DNA of 64,000 nt from Stella humosa. Its GTDB lineage: Bacteria > Pseudomonadota > Alphaproteobacteria > ATCC43930 > Allostellaceae. This document shows positions 41,496-55,824 of the stretch, one piece after another. The position numbers and the translations under genes are program-made. Where the stretch lies: positions 3,546,001 to 3,610,000 of the forward strand of contig NZ_AP019700.1 in assembly GCF_006738645.1 (NCBI RefSeq). The letters are read 5' to 3'. The notes beneath the pieces were generated by a model. The model saw only the letters and a program-made list of their open reading frames with translations. It ran no database searches and was not told the origin of the DNA. Position 1 is the stretch's first letter. Every line of letters begins with the position of its first letter.

Positions 41496-42947
41496 TCAGC
41501 GCCGCGGGTGGGCGCAGTAGCGGTCCCGCTTGGCCGCCAGCGCGCCGGCCAGCGACGCGTCGGGCTCGGCCGCGAAGAGCAGTTCGCCCGCCCCGCCGAT
41601 CAGCGGGCCACCGGCACCGGCGCGGGCCAGCCGGGCGGCCCCCAGTGCAGGACCGACCGCCGCATCGGCCGCCACCGACACCGGCCGGCCGGTCGCGGCC
41701 GCCACCAGACGCGCCCACAAGCGGCTGCGGGCGCCGCCGCCGACCAGCGCGATCGGCCCGGTGACGGCGGCACCGGTGGCCGCCAGGGCATCCTGGCAAT
41801 CGGCGAGCGCCAGGGCCACGCCCTCCATCACCGCCTGCACCAGATGCAGCCGCCCGGTCGCGAAGGACAGGCCCGAGAAGGCCGCCAGCAGTCCCGGATC
41901 ATCGTGCGGCGTACGCTCGCCCGCCAGATAGGGGGTGAAGACGGGGGTATCGGCCGAAGAGATGCCGGCGGCCTCGACCTCCGCCACGAGGCGGCCGACA
42001 TCGTCGGCCCCCAGCAGATCGGCCACCCACGTCAGGGCGGCGGCCGCGCTGAGGATCACCGCCTGCTGGCAGAACAGCCCGGCCACGCCATGGCGGTGGG
42101 TGTGCATGCCCTGCCCGACCGAGGACTGGAAGTCGCGATTGGCGACGAAATAAACCCCCGACGTGCCCAGGCTGACGAAGGCCGCTCCATCGGTCACCAC
42201 GCCGGCGCCGACGCCGCCGCACATGTTGTCGCCGGCCCCGCCGACGATGGGCAGCCCCACGGGCAGCCCCCAGCGCCGCGCCAGTTCCGGCCGCAGGTGA
42301 CCGGTCACTTCCGCACACTCGACCAGGCGTGGCAACTGGTCGGCGGTGATGCCGCAGGCGGCCAGGATCGGCGGGTGCCAGGTGCCGGCGGCCGTATCCA
42401 TCAGCAGGGTGGCCGAGGCATCGGCCCGGTCGGACGCGGCGTCGCCCGACAGGCGCCAGCGCAGATAGTCCTTGGGCAGCAGGACATGCCGGGCGCGCCG
42501 CAGCACGTCCGGCTCGTGGAAGTTCAGCCACAGGAGCTTGGGTGCGGGAAAGCCCGCCATGGGCCGGCTGCCGGTGATGGCGGCGAAGCCCGGCACCACC
42601 CGCTCCAGCATGGCGCCCTCGCGCGCGGCGCGGCCGTCGTTCCACAGGATGGCCGGGCGCAGCGGCCGGTCGTGCCGGTCGACCGCGGCCACGCCCAGCA
42701 TCTGGCCGGATAGGCCCATCCCCGCCACCCGCGCCATTGCCGCCGGGTGGTCGGCAGCCAGCCGGTCGAGTGCGGCGCCGGCGGCCAGCCACCAGTCCTC
42801 GGGGTCCTGCTCGGCCCATTGCGGCTGCGGCCGGTCGACCCGCAGCGGCGAAGCGGCATCGGCCACCGGCCGGTCGGCGTCATCGACCAGCACCACCTTG
42901 ACCGAGGAAGTGCCGACATCGATGCCCAGCCAGAGCGGCCCGGTCAT
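41496..42947 (-). CDS. FGGY-family carbohydrate kinase, xylulokinase type
   Basis: The 483-residue kinase opens with IDVGTSSVKVVLVDD (phosphate 1 loop), has MGLSGQMLGVAAVD, AILWNDGRA, the catalytic GGAGDNMCGGVGAG and VSLGTSGVYF, closely following XylB. Substrates include D-xylulose, and, in polyol loci, ribulose, L-xylulose, D-erythrulose or glycerol. ATG at 42947 overlaps the glpD-like stop (ATGA). As the last gene of the SorC-driven run it would phosphorylate a ketose produced from a polyol. Confidence 0.9.
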   Translation of the reverse strand: MTGPLWLGIDVGTSSVKVVLVDDADRPVADAASPLRVDRPQPQWAEQDPEDWWLAAGAALDRLAADHPAAMARVAGMGLSGQMLGVAAVDRHDRPLRPAILWNDGRAAREGAMLERVVPGFAAITGSRPMAGFPAPKLLWLNFHEPDVLRRARHVLLPKDYLRWRLSGDAASDRADASATLLMDTAAGTWHPPILAACGITADQLPRLVECAEVTGHLRPELARRWGLPVGLPIVGGAGDNMCGGVGAGVVTDGAAFVSLGTSGVYFVANRDFQSSVGQGMHTHRHGVAGLFCQQAVILSAAAALTWVADLLGADDVGRLVAEVEAAGISSADTPVFTPYLAGERTPHDDPGLLAAFSGLSFATGRLHLVQAVMEGVALALADCQDALAATGAAVTGPIALVGGGARSRLWARLVAAATGRPVSVAADAAVGPALGAARLARAGAGGPLIGGAGELLFAAEPDASLAGALAAKRDRYCAHPRR

Positions 42948-44440
42948 GCTGTCGCCAGCCAGTCGGCAAAGGCCCCGCGCTGGTCGGCCGACAGGTGCAA
43001 GCCATGCTTGGTGCGCCGGTCGAGGATGTCGTCGGCCGTGCGCGCCCATTCGGCCGTCATCAGGTAGCGGGCCTCGCGCTCGTAGAGCAGGCCGCCGAAA
43101 TGCCGGCCGAGCCCGGCCATGTCGACGGCGTCCCCCAGCACCCGCCCGGCGCGCGTGCCGTAGAGGCGCCCGAGATGCCGGGCGAGGTCCGCCGGCAGCC
43201 ATGGCCGCTCGGCCTGGAAGGCGGCCAGGAACCGGTCGAAGTCGGCATCGGCGATGTCGCCGCCGGGCAGGTGGGCCGTCGCGGTCCAGGCCGGCGCCAG
43301 GTTCGCAAAGAACGGAGCCAGCGCGCGCATGGCGTGTTCCGACAGCTTGCGGAAGGTGGTGATCTTGCCGCCGAAGGCCGACAGCATGGGCGCCATCCCC
43401 TCCGGCGCGTCGACGTCGAAGACATAGTCGCGGGTGACGGCGCTGGGGTTCTCGGCCGCGTCGTCATAGAGCGGGCGCACGCCGGAATAGGCATGGACGA
43501 TGGACTGGCGGGTGAGCTGCTGGCGGAAATAGCGGTTCACGATATCCAGCAGATAGTCGATCTCGCGATCGTCGATCGCGACCGCCTCGGCTGGCCCCTC
43601 ATAGGGGATGTCCGTGGTGCCGATCAGGCAGAGGTCGTCCTCGTAGGGATTGACGAAGATCACCCGGCGGTCCTGGTTCTGCAGCAGGTAGGCGTGCGGC
43701 CCGTCCCAGAACTTGGGCACCACGATGTGGCTGCCCTTCACCAGGCGGACGTTGCGGGCGGAGTTCTGGCCGGCGACGCGGCCGATCACGTCCTTCACCC
43801 AGGGGCCGGCCGCATTCACCAGGACGCGCGCATGCACGGTGACCGGCCCGCCCTCTCCCGCCAGTTCGGCCCGCCACAGCCCGCCCTCGCGCCTAGCCGC
43901 CACGCAGGCGGTGCGCGGCAGGATGCGGGCGCCGCGCTCGGCCGCGTCGATCGCGTTCAGCACCACCAGGCGGGAATCGTCGACCCAGCAGTCGGAATAC
44001 TCGAAGCCGATGCGCGGCGGGTCGGCCAGCGCCCGGCCCTCCGGCGCGCGCCGCAGGTTCAGCGTCCGCGTGCCGGGCAGCCGCTTACGCCCGCCCAGAT
44101 GGTCGTAGAGGAACAGGCCCAGCCGCACGAGCCAGGCCGGCCTGGCCGACGCCCGGTGCGGCAGCACGAAGCGCATCGGCCAGATGATGTGGGGGGCCGC
44201 CGCCAGCAGCACCTCGCGCTCGATCAGCGCCTCGCGCACCAGGCGGAACTCGTAATATTCCAGGTAGCGCAACCCGCCATGGACGAGCTTGCCCGACCGC
44301 GAACTGGTACCCTGGCCCAGGTCATCCTTCTCGCACAGCACCACCGACAGGCCGCGGCCGGCGGCGTCGCGCGCGATGCCGGCACCGTTTACGCCGCCGC
44401 CCACGATCAGCAGGTCGACTGGATCGGCTTGCCCCCCCAT
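42944..44440 (-). CDS. FAD-dependent glycerol-3-phosphate dehydrogenase family protein (GlpD/EryB-like)
   Basis: The 498-residue protein has the FAD motif VDLLIVGGGVNGAGIARDAAGRG, the GlpD block GQGTSSRSGKLVHGGLRYLE, and GPWVKDVIGRVAG. Family members oxidise sn-glycerol-3-phosphate or erythritol-4-phosphate to the keto-sugar phosphate, passing electrons to quinone at the inner membrane. In erythritol operons the EryB homologue lies with an FGGY kinase and a SorC regulator, exactly the company found here. ATG 44440 chosen; GTG 44443 lies just before. Confidence 0.92.
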   Translation of the reverse strand: MGGQADPVDLLIVGGGVNGAGIARDAAGRGLSVVLCEKDDLGQGTSSRSGKLVHGGLRYLEYYEFRLVREALIEREVLLAAAPHIIWPMRFVLPHRASARPAWLVRLGLFLYDHLGGRKRLPGTRTLNLRRAPEGRALADPPRIGFEYSDCWVDDSRLVVLNAIDAAERGARILPRTACVAARREGGLWRAELAGEGGPVTVHARVLVNAAGPWVKDVIGRVAGQNSARNVRLVKGSHIVVPKFWDGPHAYLLQNQDRRVIFVNPYEDDLCLIGTTDIPYEGPAEAVAIDDREIDYLLDIVNRYFRQQLTRQSIVHAYSGVRPLYDDAAENPSAVTRDYVFDVDAPEGMAPMLSAFGGKITTFRKLSEHAMRALAPFFANLAPAWTATAHLPGGDIADADFDRFLAAFQAERPWLPADLARHLGRLYGTRAGRVLGDAVDMAGLGRHFGGLLYEREARYLMTAEWARTADDILDRRTKHGLHLSADQRGAFADWLATA

Positions 44441-44453
44441 CACGACGATCCGA

Positions 44454-45122
44454 TCAAGCCGACTTCCGGTCCTGCAGGCCGTAGGTCGAGAAGCCCTTGC
44501 GGGTATCGGCGATCTGCTCCTTCGACAGCAGCGCCGGGCCGCCGGCCAGCAGCAGGGTGTGGTAGTACTGGCGCGCGATCGTCTCCAGTTCGACCGCCAG
44601 CCACATCGCCTTGTCCAGGCCGCTGCCGATGGCGATCATGCCGTGGTTGGCGAGCAGGCAGCCGTTGCGCCCCTCCATCGCCTTCAAGGCGTTGGCCGAC
44701 AGTTCCGCCGTGCCATAGGTCGCGTAGTCCGCGCAGCGGATCTCGTCGCCGCCGAAGGCCGCGATCATGTAGTGGCAGGAGGGGATCTCCTTGCGCGCGA
44801 TCGCCAGCACCGTGGCGAAGGTCGAATGGGTGTGGACGACCGCGCCAGCATCGGGCCGGGCGCGCAGGATGTCGCGATGGAAGCGCCATTCCGTCGAGGG
44901 CTTTAGCGGGCCGTCCCAGGCGCCGGTCTCGTCGGCCAGCGGCATGGAGGCGATGCTCTCGGGCGTCAACTGCTCGTAGGGGGTGGCGCTGGGGGTGATC
45001 AGCATGCGGTCGCCCCAGCGCGCCGAGATGTTGCCCGACGTGCCCTGGTTGAAGCCGGACGAGTTCATCCAGATGCACTTGTCGATGATCGCCTGGCGCA
45101 GCGCGCGTTCTTCGTTCGTCAT
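44454..45122 (-). CDS. Class II aldolase/adducin-family protein
   Basis: The 222-residue enzyme has the zinc ligands in VVHTHSTFATVLAI (two His) and LLANHGMIAIG (third His), and the GTSGNIS phosphate-binding motif near residue 28. Relatives are L-fuculose-phosphate aldolase and the OtnC 4-carbon acid sugar decarboxylating aldolases. It would split a phosphorylated keto-sugar or ketose to DHAP and an aldehyde. Start MTNEERAL at 45122 is taken after the upstream, non-homologous extension. Confidence 0.9.
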   Translation of the reverse strand: MTNEERALRQAIIDKCIWMNSSGFNQGTSGNISARWGDRMLITPSATPYEQLTPESIASMPLADETGAWDGPLKPSTEWRFHRDILRARPDAGAVVHTHSTFATVLAIARKEIPSCHYMIAAFGGDEIRCADYATYGTAELSANALKAMEGRNGCLLANHGMIAIGSGLDKAMWLAVELETIARQYYHTLLLAGGPALLSKEQIADTRKGFSTYGLQDRKSA

Positions 45123-45135
45123 GTGGGCTCTCCGG

Positions 45136-46179
45136 TCAGCAGGGTTGAAGGGGCGGCTCGCCCGCCAGATAGCGCCGCACCTCGTCGGCCACCCGGGCCG
45201 CCGCATAGGTGACGGTGCGCAGCGAGGCGCCGGCGATGTGCGGGGTCAGCGTGACGTTGGGCAGCTTCAAGAGCGGCCAGTCGGGCGGCGGCGGCTCGAT
45301 CGCGAAGGTCTCCAGCATGGCGCCGCGCAGATGGCCGGAAGCGAGCGCGTCATGGAGCGCATCGTAGTCGACCAGCGGTCCACGCGCGGTGTTGACGAAG
45401 ATCGACCCGGCCCGCATGCGGGCGAAGCGCGCGGCATCCATCATGCCGGTCGTCTCCGCCGTCACCCGGGCATGCAGCGAGACCACGTCGGCGCGCGCCA
45501 GCAGTTCGTCGAGCCCCACCTGCTCCACCCCATCGGCCGCGTCCTCGTTGGAGAGGCGGGCGTAAGGGTCGGCCACCAGGATCGACCCGCCGAAGGCGCG
45601 CAGCAGGCGCACCACGCGGGTGCCGACCTCGCCGTAGCCGACGATGCCGACGGTCAGCTCCGACAGTTCGCGGCCGGTCACGTCGGCGCGGTAGAGATCG
45701 CCCCGCCACTCGCCGCGGCGCAGGCTGTCGTGGCCGGCGCGGATCAGCCGCGTCTCGGCCAGGATGGCGCCGATGGTGAATTCGGCCACCGCGCTGGCAT
45801 TGCGGCCGGGCACGTTCACCACGCGCAGGCCGCGGCGGCGGGCCGCCGCCAGGTCGATGTTGACCGGCCCGCCGCGCGACACGGCCACCAGCCGCAGGGC
45901 GGGCATTGCCGCCATCATGGCATCCGACAGCGGTGCCAGGTGGGTCACCAGGATTTCCGCGTCGCCCACGAAACCGACGATCTCGTCCGGCTCGCCCAGA
46001 TATTCGCGCAGGCCCGCCAGGGGCGAGCCCGCCTCGGCGTTGCGCATCGGCACGTCCGGCCAGGGCAGTTCCAGCAGGCGGATCGCCAGATCCCCGCCGC
46101 AAGCCCCTTCCAGGGCGCGGCGAAAGGATTCGGCCTGCATGAAGCGGTCGCCGATGACGGCGATGGCGGGGCTAGGCAT
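45136..46179 (-). CDS. D-2-hydroxyacid dehydrogenase (3-phosphoglycerate dehydrogenase superfamily)
   Basis: The 347-residue protein has the NAD-binding motif VGIVGYGEVGTRVVR (residues about 160-174) and the catalytic trio Arg in LHARVTAETT, Glu in FAIEPPP, and His in LTPHIAGAS. The block AMLETFAIEP replaces the usual ALDVFE. It would oxidise or reduce a 2-hydroxy acid in the polyol pathway. It overlaps the FGGY kinase gene stop by eight bases; ATG 46179 is preferred over upstream in-frame codons. Confidence 0.88.
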   Translation of the reverse strand: MPSPAIAVIGDRFMQAESFRRALEGACGGDLAIRLLELPWPDVPMRNAEAGSPLAGLREYLGEPDEIVGFVGDAEILVTHLAPLSDAMMAAMPALRLVAVSRGGPVNIDLAAARRRGLRVVNVPGRNASAVAEFTIGAILAETRLIRAGHDSLRRGEWRGDLYRADVTGRELSELTVGIVGYGEVGTRVVRLLRAFGGSILVADPYARLSNEDAADGVEQVGLDELLARADVVSLHARVTAETTGMMDAARFARMRAGSIFVNTARGPLVDYDALHDALASGHLRGAMLETFAIEPPPPDWPLLKLPNVTLTPHIAGASLRTVTYAAARVADEVRRYLAGEPPLQPC

Positions 46180-47731
46180 CGCCGCCGCCCTCCGCCAGGC
46201 GTCGCCACACCGGCGGCATCGCGCGGCGCGCCTCCTGGTAGGCGGGGAAGATCCGGGCATAGGCGGCCACCAGCTCCGGGTCGGGCGCCAGCGCCGTGCC
46301 CAGATGCGGCGTCACCCAGCGGGCGACGCAAGCATCCATGTCGGTGAAGAGGCCGAGCGAGACGGCGGCGATCATGGCGGCCCCGGCGGCCCCCGCCTCC
46401 TGCCGGGTGCTGGCACGCACCGGCGCGTCCAGCGTCGCCGCCAGCATCTGCCGCAGGGCCTGGCTGCGGGCGCCACCGCCGGACACCCGCACCTCGGCCG
46501 GCATCGGCCCCATCGCGGCGTAGCAATCCCGCGCGGCCAGGGCCAGCCCCTCGAACACCGCGCGCACCAGGTCGGCATGGCCATGGCGGGTGGACAGGCC
46601 GAAGAAGCCCGCGCGGGCATCGACGTCGACGAACGGCCCGCGCTCGCCGCCCTCGGAGATATAGGGGTGGAACAGCAGCGTGCCCGGCGCCGTGCCGGCC
46701 AGCATGTCGTCGACCCCAGCCAGGAGCTGGGCGCGGTCGCGGTGGACGCCGGCCGACGCCAGCACCCCGCCGATCAGGTCCAGCATCCAATCGATGTTGA
46801 GCGTGGCAGCCAGGTTCGACTGCATCTGGGCATAGGTGCCGTCGACCGGGAAGGCGATGGTGTAGCCGGTGCGCTCGGCCGGCAGCGCCACGTTGGCGGC
46901 ACCGCGCACCAGGCGCATGTGCATGCCGGTGGAACCCAGGATGCTGGTGCCGGCGGCACCGTCTCGGTCATAGAGACCCGCGCCCAGCGCCGAGCAGACG
47001 ATGTCGATGTATCCCAGTACGACCGGCGTGCCGGCCAGCAGGCCCGCCGCCCGGGCGGCGTCGGCCGTCAGCGTCGCATGGCCGGCGGTCCCGTCGACGA
47101 TTTCCGGCAGCAGGTGGCGCAGCGGGGCCATGTCGAGCGCGTCCACCACCGCATCGCTGTAGGCGCGCGTGCGGAAGTCGCCGAAGCTGAGCGCCCCCTC
47201 CGACGGGTCGGTGGCGCGCTGGCCGGTCAGCTTCAGATAGAGCCAGTCCTTGCAGTGGAAGGCGGTTGAGGCCGATGCGATCGCGTCGGGCCGGTGCTGC
47301 CGCAGCCAGGCGAGCTGCGGACCCTGCTGGCAGGCGGCAAGGCCGGTGCCCGTCGCGGCGAACCGGATAGCGTCGGCGGGCTGCCGGCGCATCGCGTCGA
47401 CGATGCGGCCGGCGCGGGCATCCAGCCACAGCATAGCGGGGCCAACCGGCTCGCCGCCCGCGTCGACCAGCCAGGTGCCGTCCCCCTGCCCGGTGACGGC
47501 GATGCCGGCCAGTCGCCTGGCCAGGTCCGGTACCTGCTCGCCCATCCGGCGCAGGGTCTCGGCAGCGGCCAGCCAGGTCGCCTGCATGTCCTGCTCGGCC
47601 CCGCCGCCGGGCACGACGGCCCAGCGATTGGGGACGAAGGTGACCGCCAACGGCGTGCCGTCGAGCGCGAAGGCAACCGACTTGATGACCGACGTGCCGG
47701 CGTCGATGCCGACGAGGATAGGCTCGGCCAT
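46172..47731 (-). CDS. FGGY-family carbohydrate kinase, second of the locus
   Basis: The 519-residue kinase carries LVGIDAGTSVIKSVAFALDG, GIAVTGQGDGTWLVD, AMLWLDARA, GTSILGSTGMHM and the C-terminal RVSGGGARSQALRQMLA. It resembles the EryA/RhaB/AraB branch more than XylB and probably phosphorylates the primary polyol. Two FGGY kinases in one operon suggest two substrates or two successive steps. It lies four bases before the SorC gene stop on the same strand. Confidence 0.9.
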   Translation of the reverse strand: MAEPILVGIDAGTSVIKSVAFALDGTPLAVTFVPNRWAVVPGGGAEQDMQATWLAAAETLRRMGEQVPDLARRLAGIAVTGQGDGTWLVDAGGEPVGPAMLWLDARAGRIVDAMRRQPADAIRFAATGTGLAACQQGPQLAWLRQHRPDAIASASTAFHCKDWLYLKLTGQRATDPSEGALSFGDFRTRAYSDAVVDALDMAPLRHLLPEIVDGTAGHATLTADAARAAGLLAGTPVVLGYIDIVCSALGAGLYDRDGAAGTSILGSTGMHMRLVRGAANVALPAERTGYTIAFPVDGTYAQMQSNLAATLNIDWMLDLIGGVLASAGVHRDRAQLLAGVDDMLAGTAPGTLLFHPYISEGGERGPFVDVDARAGFFGLSTRHGHADLVRAVFEGLALAARDCYAAMGPMPAEVRVSGGGARSQALRQMLAATLDAPVRASTRQEAGAAGAAMIAAVSLGLFTDMDACVARWVTPHLGTALAPDPELVAAYARIFPAYQEARRAMPPVWRRLAEGGGDA

Positions 47732-47735
47732 GGCC

Positions 47736-48704
47736 CTACTTGCGCGGTGCTGGGCCGCGCGGCCGCTCCAGCCGCTCGATCAGGGTGCGCGCGGTACGCT
47801 CGTCGGTGATCAGCCCCTTCAGCATGCGGCTGGCCAGCACCGATGCGATCGCATCCACCTTGGCGACGCCGCCGGCGATCGCGATCATTCGGCTGCGCCG
47901 GAGGTCTTCCAGTTCCAGCGACAGGACGCGGTGGCTGACCTCGGTATCGACGGGCTTCCCGGCGCGATCGAAGAACCAGCCCAGGATCTCGCCGCAGCCG
48001 CCGTCGCGCCGCACCTGGTCCATGTCGGCGCGGTCGATCATGCCGGTCGCGATCAGGGATGCCTGGCGCTCGACCGCGCCGATGCTGACGAAGAGCAGGC
48101 TGGCGGAGCGGGCCAGGTCGAACACCTCGGCCACGCCGCGCTGCGCCAGCAGGACCGCCCTGTCCTCGACCGAATTGGCGATGAAGGGTACCGGCATGAC
48201 ATAGGCTTCCGCCCCGGTGCGATCGGCCAGGCGATGGATGACATCGTGCGGATTGGCCGAGAACTTGCGCGTCAGCCCACCCAGCAGCGACACGAAGCGG
48301 GTGCGCTTCACCGGCATGCGCATCAGGTGGTCGGCGCAGGCCGCCAGCGTGCGGCCATGGCCGACGCCGATCAGTGTGTCCTCGTCGCGCTCCAGCACGC
48401 CTTTCAGGTATTGCGCGCCGACGATGCCCAGCGCCTTCAGCGGCAGGGGGTCGTCATCGAGAACCGGCACGACGCGGCAGAAATCCAGCCCGTGCGCGGC
48501 TGACAGCGCGCCCTCCATCTGGGCGCACTCGGCGATCTCGCCATCGATGAAGACGCGCACGAGCCCGTCGCGGGCGGCACGGGCCACCAAGCGATGGGCC
48601 TTCAGGCGGGTGATGCCCAGGCGTTCGGCCACCTCGGACTGGGTCAGCCCGCCGGCGAAATGCATCCAGGCCGCCCGCGTCGCCAGTCCGATCTCGTCTT
48701 CCAC
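47736..48704 (-). CDS. SorC-family sugar-binding transcriptional regulator
   Basis: The 322-residue product has an N-terminal HTH (GLTQSEVAERLGITRLKAHRLV, residues 19-40) and the SorC sugar-binding domain (VGAQYLKGVLERDEDTLIGVGHGRT and MPVPFIAN, DTEVSHRVLSLELEDL). EryD, RbtR and DeoR-type members respond to phosphorylated sugars. GTG 48704 is the first codon of the run and starts just downstream of a group of 12-base repeats. It most likely represses both divergent operons. Confidence 0.92.
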   Translation of the reverse strand: MEDEIGLATRAAWMHFAGGLTQSEVAERLGITRLKAHRLVARAARDGLVRVFIDGEIAECAQMEGALSAAHGLDFCRVVPVLDDDPLPLKALGIVGAQYLKGVLERDEDTLIGVGHGRTLAACADHLMRMPVKRTRFVSLLGGLTRKFSANPHDVIHRLADRTGAEAYVMPVPFIANSVEDRAVLLAQRGVAEVFDLARSASLLFVSIGAVERQASLIATGMIDRADMDQVRRDGGCGEILGWFFDRAGKPVDTEVSHRVLSLELEDLRRSRMIAIAGGVAKVDAIASVLASRMLKGLITDERTARTLIERLERPRGPAPRK

Positions 48705-48720
48705 CCACCGCCCCAGATTT

Positions 48721-48831
48721 GGAACTTATGTTCTTATAGAGAAATAATGTTCCGACTTGCCCGGCCGTGTCAAGGGGCGCCGCGGCCGTCATCGCCCTGC
48801 AACATATGTTGCCTATCCTATACAAATGTTC
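48721..48831. promoter_or_regulatory. Four-copy 12-base operator motif between the SorC gene and the glycerol-1-phosphate dehydrogenase gene
   Basis: Copies are GAACTTATGTTC (48722-48733), GAAATAATGTTC (48741-48752), CAACATATGTTG (48800-48811, a perfect palindrome) and ATACAAATGTTC (48820-48831). The starts are 19 and 20 bases apart within each pair, about two helical turns, and one pair is close to each divergent start. TATAAG on the minus strand (48733-48738) could be a -10 element overlapped by the first pair. SorC proteins act as tetramers on such paired sites. Confidence 0.7.
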
Positions 48832-48891
48832 GCGACCATGTTAAGGCTCGCGACGATCGGAACCAAGATCGCGCAATGCGACCGGAGAACG

Positions 48892-50268
48892 ATGGGCGGA
48901 GCGGCCGACAGCCTGGAGCGCGCGGTGCGGGGTGCATCGGTGACGCGCGAAGTGGTCCTGGAACGCGGGGCGACGGCAGCATTGCCGGGCCTGCTGCGCC
49001 GCCATTTGCCGGCCGGGCCGATTCTCCTCGTCGCCGACGACAACACGTTGGCCGCTGCCGGCATGGCGGTCGGCGCGGTGCTGGCCGGTGCCGGCATCGC
49101 CCATGACCGTTTGGTCCTGCCGGGCCAGCCGCGACTGAAGCCGCGGGTTTCCCATACCGAGATGATCGCGGCCCGCATCCGCGCCGATGGCGCCGTGCCC
49201 GTAGCGATCGGCGCCGGCGTGCTCAACGACCTGGTGAAGCGGGCCGCCGCCATGGCCGGGACGCCCTATGCCGTCGTCGGTACGGCCGCTTCCATGGACG
49301 GCTATGCCGCATCGGGTGCCGCCCTGATGGACGGCGACTTCAAGCGCACCCTGCCCTGCCCGCCGCCGGTGGCGGTGCTGGCCGATCTCGACGTCGTGGC
49401 CGCCGCCCCGCCCCGCATGGCGGCCTGGGGCTACGGCGATCTCGCCGGCAAGGTCGTGGCGGGCGCCGACTGGATCGTGGCCGACGCCCTGGGCGAGGAG
49501 GCGATCGACGCCGACATCTTCGGCCTGGTGCAGGACGGGCTGGCCGGCTGGCTCGATGCCCCGGCGCGCCTGCCCCAGGGCGACCCCGAGGCGCTGCGCG
49601 GCCTGATGCAGGGGCTGCTGATCACCGGCTTTGCCATGCAGGCGCATGGCACGTCGCGCCCGGCGAGCGGCAGCGACCACCAGTTCGCCCATCTGTGGGA
49701 GATGGAGGGTCTGTCGGTGCCCGGCGCGTCTGGCGGCAAGGAGCCCGTCTCGCACGGTGCCTGCGTTGGCATCGGCACCGTAGCCATGCTGGCGCTCTAC
49801 GAATGGCTGCTGGCGCAGGACCGGCCGGTCCGCGACATCGACGCGGCCGTCGCCGGCCAGCCGACCGCGGCGGCCGAGGCCACCCTGGTCGCCGCCGCCT
49901 TCCCCGACGCCGGCATGGCCGTCAGTGCGGCGGCCGAGATGGTCGCCAAGCGGCCGTCGCCCGCGCGGCTGCGCGCACGGCTCGAGCGCCTCGACGCCGC
50001 CTGGCCGGACCTCCGCCGGCGCCTGGCCGGCCGGCTGCCGCCGGCCGCGCGGATGCAGGCGCAGCTTGCCGCCGCCGGCGCGCCGTCTCGGCTGGACCAG
50101 ATCGCCGTCAGCCCCGCCAGGATGGCGGCCGACTATCGCCGCGCCCGGCTGATCCGCCGGCGCTATACCGTCCTCGACCTGCTGGCCGACCTGGGCCGGC
50201 TCGACGAGGCGGTCGATTCCCTGTTCGCCCCGGACGGGTTCTGGGGCGCGCAGGCAGCGAAGCACTGA
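48892..50268 (+). CDS. sn-Glycerol-1-phosphate dehydrogenase family protein (AraM/EgsA-like)
   Basis: The 458-residue protein shows the iron/zinc-alcohol-dehydrogenase-like AraM features: VAIGAGVLNDLVKRAAAMAG, VGTAASMDGYAASGAAL (metal-ligand Asp), AWGYGDLAGK, SGSDHQFAHLWE (His) and PVSHGACVGIGTVAM (His). These enzymes interconvert DHAP and sn-glycerol-1-phosphate with NAD(P)H, the reaction used by archaea for lipid backbones. ATG 48892 is preferred after GGAGA. Heading an operon of import and phosphodiester-cleaving genes implies oxidation of G1P for catabolism. Confidence 0.85.
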   Translation: MGGAADSLERAVRGASVTREVVLERGATAALPGLLRRHLPAGPILLVADDNTLAAAGMAVGAVLAGAGIAHDRLVLPGQPRLKPRVSHTEMIAARIRADGAVPVAIGAGVLNDLVKRAAAMAGTPYAVVGTAASMDGYAASGAALMDGDFKRTLPCPPPVAVLADLDVVAAAPPRMAAWGYGDLAGKVVAGADWIVADALGEEAIDADIFGLVQDGLAGWLDAPARLPQGDPEALRGLMQGLLITGFAMQAHGTSRPASGSDHQFAHLWEMEGLSVPGASGGKEPVSHGACVGIGTVAMLALYEWLLAQDRPVRDIDAAVAGQPTAAAEATLVAAAFPDAGMAVSAAAEMVAKRPSPARLRARLERLDAAWPDLRRRLAGRLPPAARMQAQLAAAGAPSRLDQIAVSPARMAADYRRARLIRRRYTVLDLLADLGRLDEAVDSLFAPDGFWGAQAAKH

Positions 50269-50297
50269 ACCGACAGAAACCTGGTAGGGAGGACAAC

Positions 50298-51617
50298 ATG
50301 GCCTTCGTTGGTCGCAACATGATGCTGGGCGGCGTGCTGCTCGGCCTGGCCGCCGCCCCCGCCGCGGCCCAGCGGGTCGAGGTGCAGTGGTGGCATGCCA
50401 TGGGCGGCGTGCTGGGCGAGCGCGTCGACGAGTTGGTGAAGGGCTTCAACGAGGCCCAGGACAAGTACACCGTGGTCGCCGTCAACAAGGGCAACTACGA
50501 CGAGGTCATCAACGGCACCATCGCCGCCTATCGCGCCAAGCGCCATCCGCACCTGGTGCAGATCTACGAGCGCGGCTTCATGACCATGCTGCTGTCGGAC
50601 GCGACCGTGCCCGTGCACCAGCTGATGAAGGAGCAGAAGTACGACATCGACTGGTCGGACTTCATCAAGCCGGTGGCCAGCTTCTACACCTACAAGGGCA
50701 ATCTGATGACGATGCCCTTCAACTCGTCCACGCCGATCCTCTGGTACAACAAGGACCAGTTCGCCAAGGCCGGGTTCGAGAAGCCGGCCGCCACCTGGCA
50801 GGAATTCGAGAAGCAGCTCTACGAGATCAAGTTGAAGGGTGCGGCCGAATGCGGCACGGCACTCGCCAACGACTATTTCTGGAGCCTGATCGAGAACTAC
50901 AGCGCGATCAACGACCAGCCCTTCGCGACGAAGTCGAACGGCTTCGACGGCATCGACACCGAGTTCGTCTACAACAAGACGAAGGTCGTGGGCCAGGTCA
51001 CTCGCCTGAAGAAGTGGCTGGACGACGGCGTGCTGCAACTGGCCGGCACCGGCCTCAGCCCGCAGCAGCTCTTCGCGTCGGGCAAGTGCGCCACATACAT
51101 CTCGTCGACCGCCGACCATGGCGCGATGGAGCGCAACGCCACCATCCCGTGGAGCGCCACCTACATGCCCTACGAGGCCGATGTCGGCACGCCGCGCAAC
51201 AGCACGATCGGCGGCGCCACCATCTGGGTGATGAAGGGCCACAAGGCCGAGGAGTATGCGGGCGTCGCCGCCTTCTTCAACCACCTGGCCAGCCCCAAGG
51301 TGCAGGTCTGGTGGCACAAGGTGACGGGCTACGTGCCGCTGACCAACGCCGCCTACAAGGTGGCCAAGGACGAGGGCTACTACACCCAGAACCCGACGCG
51401 CGAGATCGCCGTACTGCAGTTGAGCCGCGGCACGCCGACCCAGAACTCCATGGGCTTCCGCTTCGGCAACTTCACCCAGACCACCTTCGCGCTGCGGCAG
51501 GAGATGGAAGCGGTGATGACCGGCAAGAAGAAGCCGCAGGAGGCGCTGGACGATTCCGTGAAGCGCGGCAACGACATCCTGCGCCAGTTCGAGAAGCTGA
51601 ACGCGGGCAAGTACTGA
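50298..51617 (+). CDS. ABC transporter substrate-binding protein, UgpB-like (family 1)
   Basis: The 439-residue periplasmic protein has a Sec signal (MAFVGRNMMLGGVLLGLAA, cleavage after AAAQ) and UgpB-like blocks: VEVQWWHAMGGVLGERVDEL, KGNYDEVINGTIAAYRAKRH, and TPILWYNKDQFAKAG. UgpB binds glycerol-3-phosphate or glycerophosphodiesters. Ribosome site AGGGAGGA precedes ATG 50298. It is followed by a strong hairpin that likely raises its yield relative to the permeases. Confidence 0.93.
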   Translation: MAFVGRNMMLGGVLLGLAAAPAAAQRVEVQWWHAMGGVLGERVDELVKGFNEAQDKYTVVAVNKGNYDEVINGTIAAYRAKRHPHLVQIYERGFMTMLLSDATVPVHQLMKEQKYDIDWSDFIKPVASFYTYKGNLMTMPFNSSTPILWYNKDQFAKAGFEKPAATWQEFEKQLYEIKLKGAAECGTALANDYFWSLIENYSAINDQPFATKSNGFDGIDTEFVYNKTKVVGQVTRLKKWLDDGVLQLAGTGLSPQQLFASGKCATYISSTADHGAMERNATIPWSATYMPYEADVGTPRNSTIGGATIWVMKGHKAEEYAGVAAFFNHLASPKVQVWWHKVTGYVPLTNAAYKVAKDEGYYTQNPTREIAVLQLSRGTPTQNSMGFRFGNFTQTTFALRQEMEAVMTGKKKPQEALDDSVKRGNDILRQFEKLNAGKY

Positions 51618-51633
51618 GCCTGTAGCGCGGGCG

Positions 51634-51657
51634 GGGGGCGTCCTTTCGGGCGCCCCC
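51634..51657 (+). terminator. Hairpin between UgpB-like and UgpA-like genes
   Basis: GGGGGCGTCC pairs with GGGCGCCCCC (one G-T pair) across loop TTTC, 17 bases after the stop. There is no T-run, so partial termination or protection of the upstream message is more probable than complete termination. Confidence 0.55.
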
Positions 51658-51688
51658 ACCGCCACATCCATATCCGGGAAATCCCATC

Positions 51689-52600
51689 ATGGCCGGCCGC
51701 AGCCGGGAGTCTGGCCTGAAGCGCGCCCACTTCGTGGAGCCGCGCGTGGCAGCACTGTTGCTGCTGCCTCAGCTGGCCATCCTCCTCCTCTTCTTCTTCA
51801 TCCCGTCGATCCGGGCGCTGGCGCAGTCGTTCCTGCTGGCCGACCCGTTCGGCGCGCGCGTCCAGTTCGTCTGGTTCGACAACTTCACCGCGCTGTTCCG
51901 CAGCCCGGAGTACCATGAATCCATCTGGGTGACGGTGTGGTTCACCCTGGCCCAGAGCGCGCTGACCATCGTGATCGCCGGCGTACTGGCATTCGCCACC
52001 GACCGGGTGATCCGCCTGCGCGGCACCTACAAGATGGTCCTGCTGCTGCCCTATGCGATTGCGCCGGCCATCGCCGGCATCCTGTGGGCGTTCCTCTTCA
52101 ACCCGGCCGTCGGCCCGATCGCGCACGCGCTGCGCGCCATCGGCATCGCCTGGGACCCCAACCTGAACGCCACCGACGCGCTGATCCTGGTGACGCTGGC
52201 GGCCACCTGGAAGCACATCTGCTACGACTACATCTTCCTGGTGGCGGCCCTGCTGGCGATGCCGCCGTCGCTGCTGGAGGCAGCGGCCGTCGACGGCGCC
52301 GGGCCGCTGCGGCGTTTCTTCCTGATCGCCATGCCGATGATCAGCCCGACGATCTTCTTCCTGACCGTGATGAATTTCGTCTACGGCTTCTTCGACACCT
52401 TCGCGATCATCGACGCGGTGACCCGCGGCGGGCCGGCCGGGGCCACCAACATCCTGGTCTACAAGGTCTACCAGGACGGGTTCGTCAACCTGGACCTGGG
52501 GTCGTCGGCCGCCCAGTCGGTCGTCCTGATGCTGTCCGCCCTCACCCTGACGCTGCTGCAGTTCCGCTATGTGGAGCGCAAGGTGAACTACGATGTCTGA
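51689..52600 (+). CDS. ABC transporter permease, UgpA-like
   Basis: The 303-residue protein has a UgpA/MalF-type N-terminus (ALLLLPQLAILLLFFFIPSI) and the ATPase-contact loop EAAAVDGAGPLRRFFLIAMP near residues 198-217. Pairs with the UgpE-like permease. No ATPase gene is present nearby, so the energising UgpC-type subunit must come from elsewhere. It lies 71 bases after ugpB with the hairpin in between. Confidence 0.92.
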   Translation: MAGRSRESGLKRAHFVEPRVAALLLLPQLAILLLFFFIPSIRALAQSFLLADPFGARVQFVWFDNFTALFRSPEYHESIWVTVWFTLAQSALTIVIAGVLAFATDRVIRLRGTYKMVLLLPYAIAPAIAGILWAFLFNPAVGPIAHALRAIGIAWDPNLNATDALILVTLAATWKHICYDYIFLVAALLAMPPSLLEAAAVDGAGPLRRFFLIAMPMISPTIFFLTVMNFVYGFFDTFAIIDAVTRGGPAGATNILVYKVYQDGFVNLDLGSSAAQSVVLMLSALTLTLLQFRYVERKVNYDV

Positions 52601-52618
52601 GCCCGGGATGTGTAAGCC

Positions 52619-53539
52619 ATGATCGAGCGCCATCCCGTCCTCGACCTCGCCTGCCACGCCGTCCTGGTGCTGGGCGCGGCCATCGTCTGCATGCCCATCT
52701 ACTTCGCCTTCGTCGCGGGGTCGCTGACGATCCAGGAGGTGCAGCAGGTTCCCCTGCCCTGGCTGCCCGGCAGCCATTTCGTGGCCAACGCCGAAACGGC
52801 CTGGAACAAGGGCAACTTCGCGCGTCTGTTCATCAACTCGGCCATCGTCGCGGTGGGCATCACGGTCGGCAAGATCGCGGTCTCGATGCTATCGGCCTTC
52901 GCGCTCGCCTATTTCCGCTTCCGCTGGCGGATGACGGCGTTCTGGCTGATCTTCGCCTCGCTGATGCTGCCGGTCGAAGTGCGCATCGTGCCGACCTTCG
53001 AATCGGTCGCCAACGCCGCGCTGCCGCTGCAATGGGTGGTGGACGAACTCGACCTCGCCGGCTGGTGGGAGGTGCTGACCGGCAACCGCATCGAGATCGC
53101 CCTGCAGTGGAACCTGATCAATACCTATAGCGGCCTGATCCTGCCGCTGATCGCGTCGGCCACGGCGACCTTCCTCTTCCGACAGTTCTTCCTGACCATC
53201 CCGGACGAGTTGTGCGAGGCGGCCCGCATCGACGGCGCCTCGCCCTGGCGCTTCTTCCGGTCCATCCTGCTGCCGCTATCCACCTCGAACATGGTGGCGC
53301 TGGCGATCATCCTCTTCCTGCATGGCTGGAACCAGTATCTCTGGCCGCTCCTCTTCACGACCGACAAGAACATGGCGACCGCCGTCATCGGGCTGAAGCA
53401 CCTGATCCCGCGCTCGGACATGGAGCCCGCCTGGAACATCGCCATGAATGCGGCGCTCATCACCATGCTGCCGCCGGTCGTCGTCGTCGTCGCCCTTCAG
53501 CGCTGGCTGGTGAAGGGCCTAGTTGACAGCTCGAAATAG
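52619..53539 (+). CDS. ABC transporter permease, UgpE-like
   Basis: The 306-residue protein is the second permease. It carries the coupling loop CEAARIDGASPWRFFRSILL at about residues 200-220 and AIILFLHGWNQYLWPLL characteristic of UgpE/MalG. Six hydrophobic segments are evident. It starts 18 bases after ugpA and is followed by the phosphodiesterase gene. Confidence 0.92.
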   Translation: MIERHPVLDLACHAVLVLGAAIVCMPIYFAFVAGSLTIQEVQQVPLPWLPGSHFVANAETAWNKGNFARLFINSAIVAVGITVGKIAVSMLSAFALAYFRFRWRMTAFWLIFASLMLPVEVRIVPTFESVANAALPLQWVVDELDLAGWWEVLTGNRIEIALQWNLINTYSGLILPLIASATATFLFRQFFLTIPDELCEAARIDGASPWRFFRSILLPLSTSNMVALAIILFLHGWNQYLWPLLFTTDKNMATAVIGLKHLIPRSDMEPAWNIAMNAALITMLPPVVVVVALQRWLVKGLVDSSK

Positions 53540-53552
53540 GAAACACTGCCTC

Positions 53553-54293
53553 ATGGTCATGATCGTCGCCCATCGCGGAGCCCGCAACCTCTGGGCCGAG
53601 AACGGGCTGGCCGGCTTTCGCCGCACCGCCGCCCTGCCCGCGGACGCCATCGAGTTCGACGTGCACGGCACCCGGGACGGCGGCGTGGTCGTCATCCACG
53701 ACGCCACGCTGGAGCGCACCACCCACGCAACCGGCCTGGTGGTCGACCACACGGTGGCCGAACTGGGCCAGATCGCGCTCCGCGACGGCCGCGGCGAGAC
53801 GGTGCCGACGCTGGAAGCCGTGCTGGAGGTCTTCAAGCCGACCCGCTACGAGATCCAGCTCGAGATCAAGACCGATGCGCTGGGCCGGCCCTATGCCGGC
53901 TTGGAGCAGAACGTGGTCGATATCTCCCGCCGCCTCGGCCTGATGGAGCGCACGCTCTTCACCAGCTTCGCGCCCGAGGTGCTGGAGACGATCCGCGCCA
54001 TCGACCCGAAGGCCGGCCTGCTGGCCTCCGTCGATCGCCGCTCGGCCGAGATGATGGGCGGCGTCGAGCCGATGCTGGACCGCTTCCTGGCGCTGGAGGG
54101 TTGCGCGATCGCCGTCCACGCGGCGCTGATGCAGATCGACCCGGCCTACTTCATCCGCCGCATCGGCGGCGACAAGCTGGGCGTGTGGATGACCAACACG
54201 GTCGACGAGATCGCCTACTGGATGGGCCAGCCCATTCGCCAGATCACCACCGACCGGCCGGACCTGGCGATCCTCGAGCGCGACGGAGGTTGA
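53553..54293 (+). CDS. Glycerophosphodiester phosphodiesterase, UgpQ-like
   Basis: The 246-residue enzyme has the GDPD motifs: IVAHRGARNLWAENGLAGF (catalytic His and Arg, Glu-Asn), AIEFDVHGTRDGGVVVIHD (metal Glu and Asp, then His), and IQLEIKTD. It lacks a signal peptide, so diesters must be imported intact before hydrolysis to glycerol phosphate and an alcohol. ATG 53553 follows AGGAAA; a TTG at 53523 overlaps the ugpE end. It links the transporter to the glycerol-1-phosphate dehydrogenase. Confidence 0.92.
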   Translation: MVMIVAHRGARNLWAENGLAGFRRTAALPADAIEFDVHGTRDGGVVVIHDATLERTTHATGLVVDHTVAELGQIALRDGRGETVPTLEAVLEVFKPTRYEIQLEIKTDALGRPYAGLEQNVVDISRRLGLMERTLFTSFAPEVLETIRAIDPKAGLLASVDRRSAEMMGGVEPMLDRFLALEGCAIAVHAALMQIDPAYFIRRIGGDKLGVWMTNTVDEIAYWMGQPIRQITTDRPDLAILERDGG

Positions 54294-54294
54294 A

Positions 54295-55824
54295 ATGATG
54301 CGCCTGACCCGACGCGGCCTCCTGCTGGGGGCCGCCGCCCTGGGGCCGCTCGCGGTGCTGCGGCACGGTCGGGCGCAATCCGCCGATCCCTTCACGCTGG
54401 GTGTCGCGTCCGGCAGCCCCAGGCCGGACCGCCTGGTGCTGTGGACGCGGCTGGCGCCGCAGCCGCTGGATGGCGGCGGCATGCCGGACCAGCCGGTGCC
54501 GGTCGAATGGGAACTGGCCGAGGACGAGCGCTTCGCGCGCATCGCCGCCCGCGGCACCTTCACCGCCATCCCCGCGCACGGCCACAGCGTCCATGCCGAG
54601 CCGACGGGCCTGGCGCCGGGGCGGACCTACTGGTACCGCTTCCGCGCCATGGGGGCCGAGAGCCCGGTCGGGCGCACGCGGACCGCGCCGGCCGAGGGGG
54701 CGGCGACCGACCGCTTCCGCTTCGCGTTTGCCTCCTGCCAGATGTACGAGCACGGCTATTTTTCGGCCTATCGCCACATGGCCGGGCAGGATCTCGACCT
54801 GGTCGTGCATCTGGGCGACTACATCTACGAGATGTCCTGGGGCCGGCGGCATGTGCGCCGCCACACCGGCGCCATCCCGACCGAGCTGTGGGAGTTCCGC
54901 GACCGCTGGGCGCTCTACAAGGGCGATCCCGACCTGGCCGCCGCCCACCGCATCGCCCCCTGGGTGGCGATCTGGGACGATCACGAGGTCGCCAACGACT
55001 ACACCAACGACCGGTCGCCGCGCACCGAGGACCCCAAGCAGTTCCTGCGCATCCGGACGGCCGCCTACCAGGCATTCTGGGAGCATATGCCGCTGCCGAT
55101 GGCGGCCGCCCCCAAGGGCCCGGACATGCGCATCCATGAGCGCTATCGCTTCGGGGACATGCTGGACCTGACCCTGCTCGACGACCGGCAGTACCGGTCG
55201 CACCCGCCCTGCGGTGCGGGCAAGGGCAATGCGCCCGGCCATGCCGACTGCCTGGACCGGCTGTCGGCCGAGCGGACGATGCTGGGCGCCCCGCAGGAGG
55301 AATGGCTGGGCCGCAGCCTGGGCGAGGCACGCGGGCGCTGGACGATCCTGGCGCAGCAGACGCTGATGGCCGAACTGGATCGCAAGGCCGGCGAGGGCCA
55401 GAGCTTCTGGATGGATGGATGGGACGGCTACCCCGCCGCCCGCGGCCGGCTGCTGGCGGCGATCGCCGAGCGCAAGCCCTCCAACCCGGTCGTCATCAGC
55501 GGCGACGTGCACGCCTTCTGGGTGGCCGACCTGAAGGAGGACTTCGCCAACCCCGCCTCGGCCACCCTGGCGAGCGAGATCGTCGGCACGTCGATCACCT
55601 CGCAGGGGCCGAACGAGGCCACCATCCGCACCGGCCAGGCCGAGAATGCCCACATCAAGTACGCCCGCGGCGACAAGCGCGGCTATGTCGCCATGACCCT
55701 GACGAAGGACAGCGCCCGCGCCGATTTGATGGCCGTCGACGACGCCTTCGAGCAGAACTCGGCGGTTCGCCCGCTGGTCAGCTTCGTCATCGAGAACGGC
55801 CAGCCGGGCGCCAAGCCGGCGTAG
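54295..55824 (+). CDS. PhoD-family alkaline phosphatase/phosphodiesterase
   Basis: The 509-residue enzyme has a Tat signal (LTRRGLLLGAAALGPLAVLR, then RAQS) and the PhoD_N domain (FTLGVASGSPRPDRLVLWTR). Metal-site motifs are FASCQMYE, VHLGDYIYEM, WDDHEVANDY and SGDVHAFW. It acts in the periplasm on phosphomonoesters or diesters, calcium/iron dependent in characterised relatives. Located directly after the GDPD gene, it may release phosphate or glycerol phosphates from lipid or teichoic-type compounds before import. Start ATG 54295, second Met three bases on. Confidence 0.92.
   Translation: MMRLTRRGLLLGAAALGPLAVLRHGRAQSADPFTLGVASGSPRPDRLVLWTRLAPQPLDGGGMPDQPVPVEWELAEDERFARIAARGTFTAIPAHGHSVHAEPTGLAPGRTYWYRFRAMGAESPVGRTRTAPAEGAATDRFRFAFASCQMYEHGYFSAYRHMAGQDLDLVVHLGDYIYEMSWGRRHVRRHTGAIPTELWEFRDRWALYKGDPDLAAAHRIAPWVAIWDDHEVANDYTNDRSPRTEDPKQFLRIRTAAYQAFWEHMPLPMAAAPKGPDMRIHERYRFGDMLDLTLLDDRQYRSHPPCGAGKGNAPGHADCLDRLSAERTMLGAPQEEWLGRSLGEARGRWTILAQQTLMAELDRKAGEGQSFWMDGWDGYPAARGRLLAAIAERKPSNPVVISGDVHAFWVADLKEDFANPASATLASEIVGTSITSQGPNEATIRTGQAENAHIKYARGDKRGYVAMTLTKDSARADLMAVDDAFEQNSAVRPLVSFVIENGQPGAKPA

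Follow-up and report, generated by a model that had tools for sequence, protein, structure and literature searches.

A gene cluster headed by an AraM/EgsA-type enzyme in the soil-type bacterium Stella humosa (assembly GCF_006738645.1) is interpreted here, with moderate confidence, as serving the SorC-regulated use of a phosphodiester that carries sn-glycerol-1-phosphate (G1P) as a carbon source. It lies in a 64,000-nucleotide window, the whole stretch of DNA analyzed, at positions 3,546,001-3,610,000 of the complete 5.83 Mb chromosome NZ_AP019700.1. The cluster joins AraM to a UgpB/A/E-type importer, a cytosolic glycerophosphodiester phosphodiesterase (GDPD) and a PhoD-type enzyme. The chances are about even that these genes form a dedicated SorC-controlled pathway in which G1P-diesters are imported, G1P is freed from them within the cell and AraM acts on it oxidatively, a specialized UgpB subfamily serving the diester. 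The families themselves are known; what appears undescribed is their conserved combination in an oxidative operon. No description of an araM-ugp-gdpd cluster was found in the openly searchable literature, subscription papers and preprints being outside the search.

The plus-strand operon has the order AraM-UgpB-UgpA-UgpE-GDPD-PhoD, with intergenic gaps of 29, 71, 18, -17 and 1 bp:

48892..50268, +, AraM/EgsA-type candidate G1P dehydrogenase, 458 amino acids (PF13685; AlphaFold model; motif residues)
50298..51617, +, UgpB-like periplasmic binding protein of a divergent subfamily (NF008211, 391 bits, cut-off 411; 9lff, E 1e-110)
51689..52600, +, UgpA-like permease (NF007852, 316 bits, cut-off 335)
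52619..53539, +, UgpE-like permease (NF008210, 350 bits, over cut-off)
53523..54293, +, cytosolic GDPD (PF03009, 98 bits; catalytic motifs)
54295..55824, +, PhoD-type phosphodiesterase/phosphatase with a twin-arginine signal (PF09423, 352 bits, and PF16655; 2yeq, E 3e-132)

UgpB starts with the ATG at 50298 and GDPD likely with the ATG at 53553. The first-pass annotation had described these six genes as an operon at 48,892-55,824, and every one was confirmed at its place and strand. The SorC regulator and two FGGY kinases of the divergent operon were absent from its account.

Conservation of the AraM-Ugp-GDPD linkage

One genome per species was scanned and 40 AraM-related loci were obtained. 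In 15 of these 40, and in the window, UgpB and UgpA come after AraM. A conserved core, FGGY kinase-SorC / AraM-UgpBAE-GDPD, is found again in about 15 Rhodospirillales/Reyranella-type genomes, PhoD being a frequent rather than constant member. Of the 17 alphaproteobacterial-type loci (the window counted), 15 have GDPD; in the remaining two the contig stops before the GDPD position. PhoD stays in the cluster yet varies in position, lying 3' of GDPD or, in other genomes, 3' of FGGY2, one of the two kinases.

The importer and the phosphodiesterase can each be exchanged. A second importer, made of a distant PhnS2-like binding protein and a fused PhnU2-like permease, directly follows GDPD in L012 (14035-16828), L022 (15409-18199) and L020 (2049-4924). 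In L020 this distant 2-aminoethylphosphonate-type importer replaces UgpBAE, and AraM overlaps GDPD directly. In the Burkholderiales loci L013, L019 and L044, AraM is accompanied by a metallophosphoesterase, an inositol-monophosphatase-family protein and a HAD phosphatase, and a further Burkholderiales relative (L023) has GDPD. The closest structures to the L019 metallophosphoesterase, 2dxl (E 4e-43), 2zo9 and 3d03, are deposited as phosphohydrolase; we take them to be GpdQ, which would make the L019 enzyme GpdQ-like. Judged from family assignments, the partners of AraM thus include glycerophosphodiesterases of two unrelated families and importers of at least three types.

Being related by descent, the loci amount to a handful of independent cases rather than 17. 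The AraM-Ugp-GDPD linkage is nevertheless beyond chance, because it is repeated across genera in a setting where the 5.83 Mb Stella genome holds only 6 GDPD matches. Within the order, the cluster is present in three of four Stella genomes and in none of 39 other genomes; vertical inheritance within the order is therefore not the pattern.

AraM as a candidate G1P dehydrogenase

AraM has the Fe-ADH_2 fold and matches PF13685 with 95 bits. An AlphaFold model built from 24 cluster sequences (mean predicted local distance difference test score 93) was ranked by VIA-align. First came the Ni2+-dependent AraM of B. subtilis (PDB 9h4x; Z 41.6, root-mean-square deviation 2.5, 374 residues) and second 3ce9, a Clostridium protein deposited as a glycerol dehydrogenase. 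Archaeal G1P dehydrogenases scored Z 35-36, that of M. jannaschii 36; the entries 4rgq and 5fb3 scored 36.4 and 35.9, above the GldA-type glycerol dehydrogenases (Z 31 or less). The residues common to the archaeal and Bacillus enzymes are kept: D136 (the Asp of xDG), K187, S255-R256-P-A-S259-G260, H263, H267 and H288. Since the model is closest to B. subtilis AraM and the signature residues are retained, AraM is a good candidate for the G1P dehydrogenase that the first-pass annotation took it to be.

The likeness to B. subtilis AraM includes an FGGY kinase neighbor, but the two proteins are only 28% identical, the Stella enzyme is ~60 residues longer, and araM of B. subtilis is part of the arabinose operon, its G1P going to heptaprenylglyceryl phosphate. 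We know of no Ugp, GDPD or PhoD linkage of B. subtilis araM. The window is close to Stella vacuolata, whose AraM (L007) is 80% identical. A quick tree placed the window AraM in a supported group with those of Rhodospirillales/Reyranella and Burkholderiales; those of Actinobacteria, Rhizobiaceae and Bacillus fell apart from it.

Annotation alone is insufficient for assigning this activity. In four Rhizobiaceae plasmid loci (L072, L073, L075, L076; gene order FGGY-SorC / AraM-HAD-GlpD-ABC-SDR), proteins annotated as sn-glycerol-1-phosphate dehydrogenase have Asn for the xDG Asp and have lost SRPxSG. They are probably a different enzyme, misannotated, and transfer of their annotation was rejected; the window AraM passes the same motif check.

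The UgpB pocket

In the Phaeobacter MED193 UgpB (GpxB) structures with G1P and sn-glycerol-3-phosphate (G3P), as described by Wang et al. (PMC12718374), the phosphate is held by Y64, S143, S266 and Y342, hydroxyls are contacted by E88, G303 and R393, and the glycerol is clamped by W188 and W191. These nine positions (Phaeobacter numbering) were compared in the window UgpB and 15 cluster relatives, and in a canonical Stella paralogue (L049). All 16 cluster proteins retain the four phosphate contacts, E88, G303 and W191. In all 16, Trp188 has given way to N or G together with a one-residue insertion, and Arg393 to T; in the canonical paralogue all nine residues are intact. An aromatic Y or F two positions before W191 could partly stand in for W188. 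Two further UgpB paralogues of the same genome, L048 (3.459 Mb) and L050 (4.967 Mb), have the Trp clamp intact, with E88 replaced by G or T and R393 by V or Q; their ligands are probably other organophosphates.

The family, the phosphate-binding residues and the idea of G1P as a bacterial carbon source are thus shared with Phaeobacter, whose UgpB differs in having the Trp clamp, Arg393 and a UgpC of its own. The M. tuberculosis protein (PDB 6r1b/4mfi) also lacks the first clamp Trp and keeps the phosphate contacts, and its Leu at the matching position accompanies binding of glycerophosphocholine and no binding of G3P (PMC4929945). It differs in having that Leu where the Stella cluster has N or G and a loop one residue longer, and in retaining the Arg (PMC12718374) where the Stella cluster has Thr. 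Because the phosphate contacts are kept while Trp188 and Arg393 are lost, a larger phosphodiester would be the likelier ligand of the cluster UgpB than free G1P or G3P. Import of free G1P by the window UgpB is doubtful, since two contacts to the glycerol part are missing from every cluster member. The possible catabolism of G1P-containing lipids put forward in the first-pass annotation is partly supported: AraM is repeatedly linked to GDPD or a GpdQ-like enzyme, and no G1P-using prenyltransferase over cut-off accompanies it in the genome, but entry as free G1P is doubtful.

GDPD and PhoD

GDPD retains the HRG, E-x-D-x-H, HD and EIK motifs across orthologues, and no signal peptide was seen in it. 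PhoD begins with MMRLTRRGLLLG, a twin-arginine signal, has both its domains, and matches 2yeq (alkaline phosphatase D). In B. subtilis, PhoD attacks wall teichoic acid as an endo-teichoicase, and PhoD and GlpQ take part in teichoic-acid degradation (PMC7086022). The Stella operon shares with that system a PhoD homologue and, by analogy, poly(glycerol phosphate) breakdown; it differs in showing no sign of phosphate-starvation control, in its cytosolic GDPD and in the coupling to AraM.

The divergent operon and its promoter region

Six minus-strand genes diverge from AraM:

48705..48891, no strand, divergent promoter region between SorC and AraM (three aligned Stella-type loci; sequence)
47736..48704, -, SorC/DeoR-type sugar-phosphate-responsive regulator (LsrR, 163 bits; DeoR, 153 bits)
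46172..47731, -, FGGY1 kinase, Stella-type accessory (TIGR01312, 232 bits, below cut-off)
45136..46260, -, D-2-hydroxyacid dehydrogenase, Stella-type accessory (PF02826 and PF00389; true start probably downstream)
44454..45206, -, class II (L-fuculose-phosphate-like) aldolase, Stella-type accessory (PF00596; PRK08087, 216 bits, cut-off 264)
42944..44443, -, GlpD sn-glycerol-3-phosphate dehydrogenase, in Stella-type clusters only (PRK13369, 823 bits, over cut-off)
41496..42947, -, FGGY2, XylB-like kinase of a GQMLG subfamily, core cluster member (TIGR01312, D-xylulose kinase, 449 bits, cut-off 380; alignments)

SorC adjoins AraM in nearly all clusters. Repeated ATGTTC/GAAC motifs in the region between them are common to the three aligned Stella-type loci; the elements in the window are GAACttATGTTC (48722-48733), AATAATGTTC and ACAAATGTTCG (48822-48832). 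A perfect 14-bp palindrome in the same region, GCAACATATGTTGC (48799-48812), was discarded as an operator, not being kept in S. vacuolata. The accessory module from FGGY1 to FGGY2 (41496-47731), with the 2-hydroxyacid dehydrogenase, aldolase and GlpD, is complete only in the window, S. vacuolata and L021, and its gene content suggests a sugar-phosphate route that includes an aldolase.

In other bacteria, Ugp, GDPD and PhoD are textbook members of the phosphate-starvation response, and the operon might accordingly be a general phosphate-scavenging one in which the AraM linkage is incidental. Phaeobacter UgpB is indeed induced by phosphate stress (PMC10132767). This account is very improbable: the region between SorC and AraM has no Pho box (the best match agrees at 10 of 14 positions and is missing from the other Stella loci), so Pho-box control was rejected; the conserved neighbor is SorC; AraM is in every cluster; and a canonical ugpBAEC operon exists elsewhere in the genome, at 217-221 kb.

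The GlpD reported earlier in the divergent operon is a real GlpD. The idea that AraM and GlpD together handle both glycerol phosphate enantiomers fits Stella but does not generalize, GlpD being found in three clusters only and a second GlpD being encoded elsewhere in the Stella genome. The commoner partner is the FGGY kinase with a conserved altered site: GQMLG replaces the GQMHG of E. coli and Brucella XylB in the window FGGY2 and in 13 of 13 aligned cluster FGGY2 proteins, and for this reason its substrate is probably not D-xylulose.

Points against the G1P-diester reading

Several observations weigh against catabolism of a G1P-diester, chief among them the core FGGY kinase. A pathway for glycerol phosphate alone has no use for such a kinase, and the genome has a genuine GlpK at another site. 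The kinase implies either that the substrate has a second half other than glycerol or that AraM acts on a polyol phosphate. AraM scores only 126 bits on NF002022, the NCBIfam G1P dehydrogenase profile, against a curated equivalog cut-off of 413. GDPD could release G3P instead of G1P. The operon contains no UgpC ATPase, unlike E. coli ugpBAECQ, whose UgpB/A/E importer and cytosolic GDPD (UgpQ) it otherwise resembles; it also differs from the E. coli operon in that a Pho box was not found and in adding AraM, PhoD, SorC and an FGGY kinase. The ATPase must therefore be borrowed, and UgpC-like proteins over cut-off do sit elsewhere in the genome, the best of them beside ugpBAE at 217-221 kb. Finally, actinobacterial AraM relatives adjoin FGGY kinases, HAD phosphatases, RpiB or DHAK-type genes but lack a phosphodiesterase, a context that hints at polyol phosphates.

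AraM might thus be a dehydrogenase of a tetritol or pentitol phosphate, the imported diester holding such a polyol and FGGY and SorC belonging to the same sugar-alcohol route. We consider this rather unlikely, with evidence on both sides. An FGGY kinase stands beside AraM in most loci, FGGY2 is XylB-like with its conserved GQMLG change, and the two contacts to the glycerol end are gone from UgpB. Rubrobacter plasmid loci (L070, L071) carry AraM, in two copies in R. indicoceani, with FGGY kinases, a HAD-IIA phosphatase, RpiB, a DHAK-family protein and a GlpD-like oxidase, which suggests use of AraM in sugar-alcohol catabolism there. However, the motif set of the window AraM is that of G1P dehydrogenases, the phosphodiesterases linked to AraM belong to glycerophosphodiesterase families, and the FGGY kinases adjacent to AraM differ in subfamily from clade to clade.

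Proposed pathway and direction of AraM

For the G1P-diester pathway the following steps are envisaged: i) exported PhoD would trim a larger polymer or diester; ii) UgpB/A/E would bring in a phosphodiester fragment, as the UgpB pocket suggests, with a UgpC-type ATPase supplied from elsewhere; iii) cytosolic GDPD, judging from its family and intact motifs, would split the diester into G1P and an alcohol; iv) AraM, whose family and active-site motif are established, would convert G1P to dihydroxyacetone phosphate with NAD(P)+; and v) the FGGY kinase would phosphorylate the other half, a phosphorylated intermediate relieving SorC. In Stella, the GlpD of the divergent operon would additionally handle G3P.

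The oxidative direction is the most likely one because of the importer, the hydrolases and SorC, and because no PcrB/GGGP synthase, the G1P-using prenyltransferase, was found over the family cut-off in the Stella genome; a 61-residue partial match of 21 bits, below cut-off, was discounted. In B. subtilis, AraM is connected with the making of heptaprenylglyceryl phosphate (PMC4244643, PMC5059525), and Stella AraM could by the same token make G1P for an archaeal-type lipid. With no such synthase over cut-off and with an importer and hydrolases as neighbors, an anabolic role of this kind is extremely improbable.

Source of G1P

The first-pass annotation had considered archaeal lipids as one source. 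GDPD acting on archaeal glycerophosphodiesters would release G1P, and uptake of G1P and growth on it have been shown in Phaeobacter (PMC12718374). Scavenging of G1P-backbone headgroups from archaeal lipids is nonetheless improbable as the function of the cluster: no gene for ether cleavage or specific to archaea was noticed in it, no feature of the locus points to archaea in particular, and bacterial sources of G1P are plentiful. The headgroup of phosphatidylglycerol is itself sn-glycerol-1-phosphate. Lipoteichoic acid is a poly(sn-glycerol-1-phosphate) (PMC7086022), and osmoregulated periplasmic glucans bear sn-1-phosphoglycerol substituents (PMC4244643). Such bacterial polymers would suit the combination of PhoD, a diester importer and GDPD no less well than archaeal lipids and are the likelier source. 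The natural substrates are likely phosphatidylglycerol-derived: glycerophosphoglycerol, lipoteichoic-acid fragments or phosphoglycerol-substituted glucans.

Implications

Growth of bacteria on G1P, and its binding and uptake by UgpB/GpxB, were published in December 2025 (PMC12718374); the main text of that paper names no AraM or other G1P-oxidizing enzyme for growth. If the proposed pathway is true, it would supply the oxidation step after this uptake. G1P is regarded as an archaeal hallmark, and bacterial AraM has mostly been discussed as making G1P to an unclear end. Should the cluster be catabolic, the "G1P dehydrogenase" genes of many bacteria would not necessarily signal archaeal-type lipids, which bears on inferences about the lipid divide. 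The pathway would also provide an enzyme route by which lipoteichoic acid and phosphoglycerol-substituted glucans, and possibly archaeal headgroups too, are turned over in soil.

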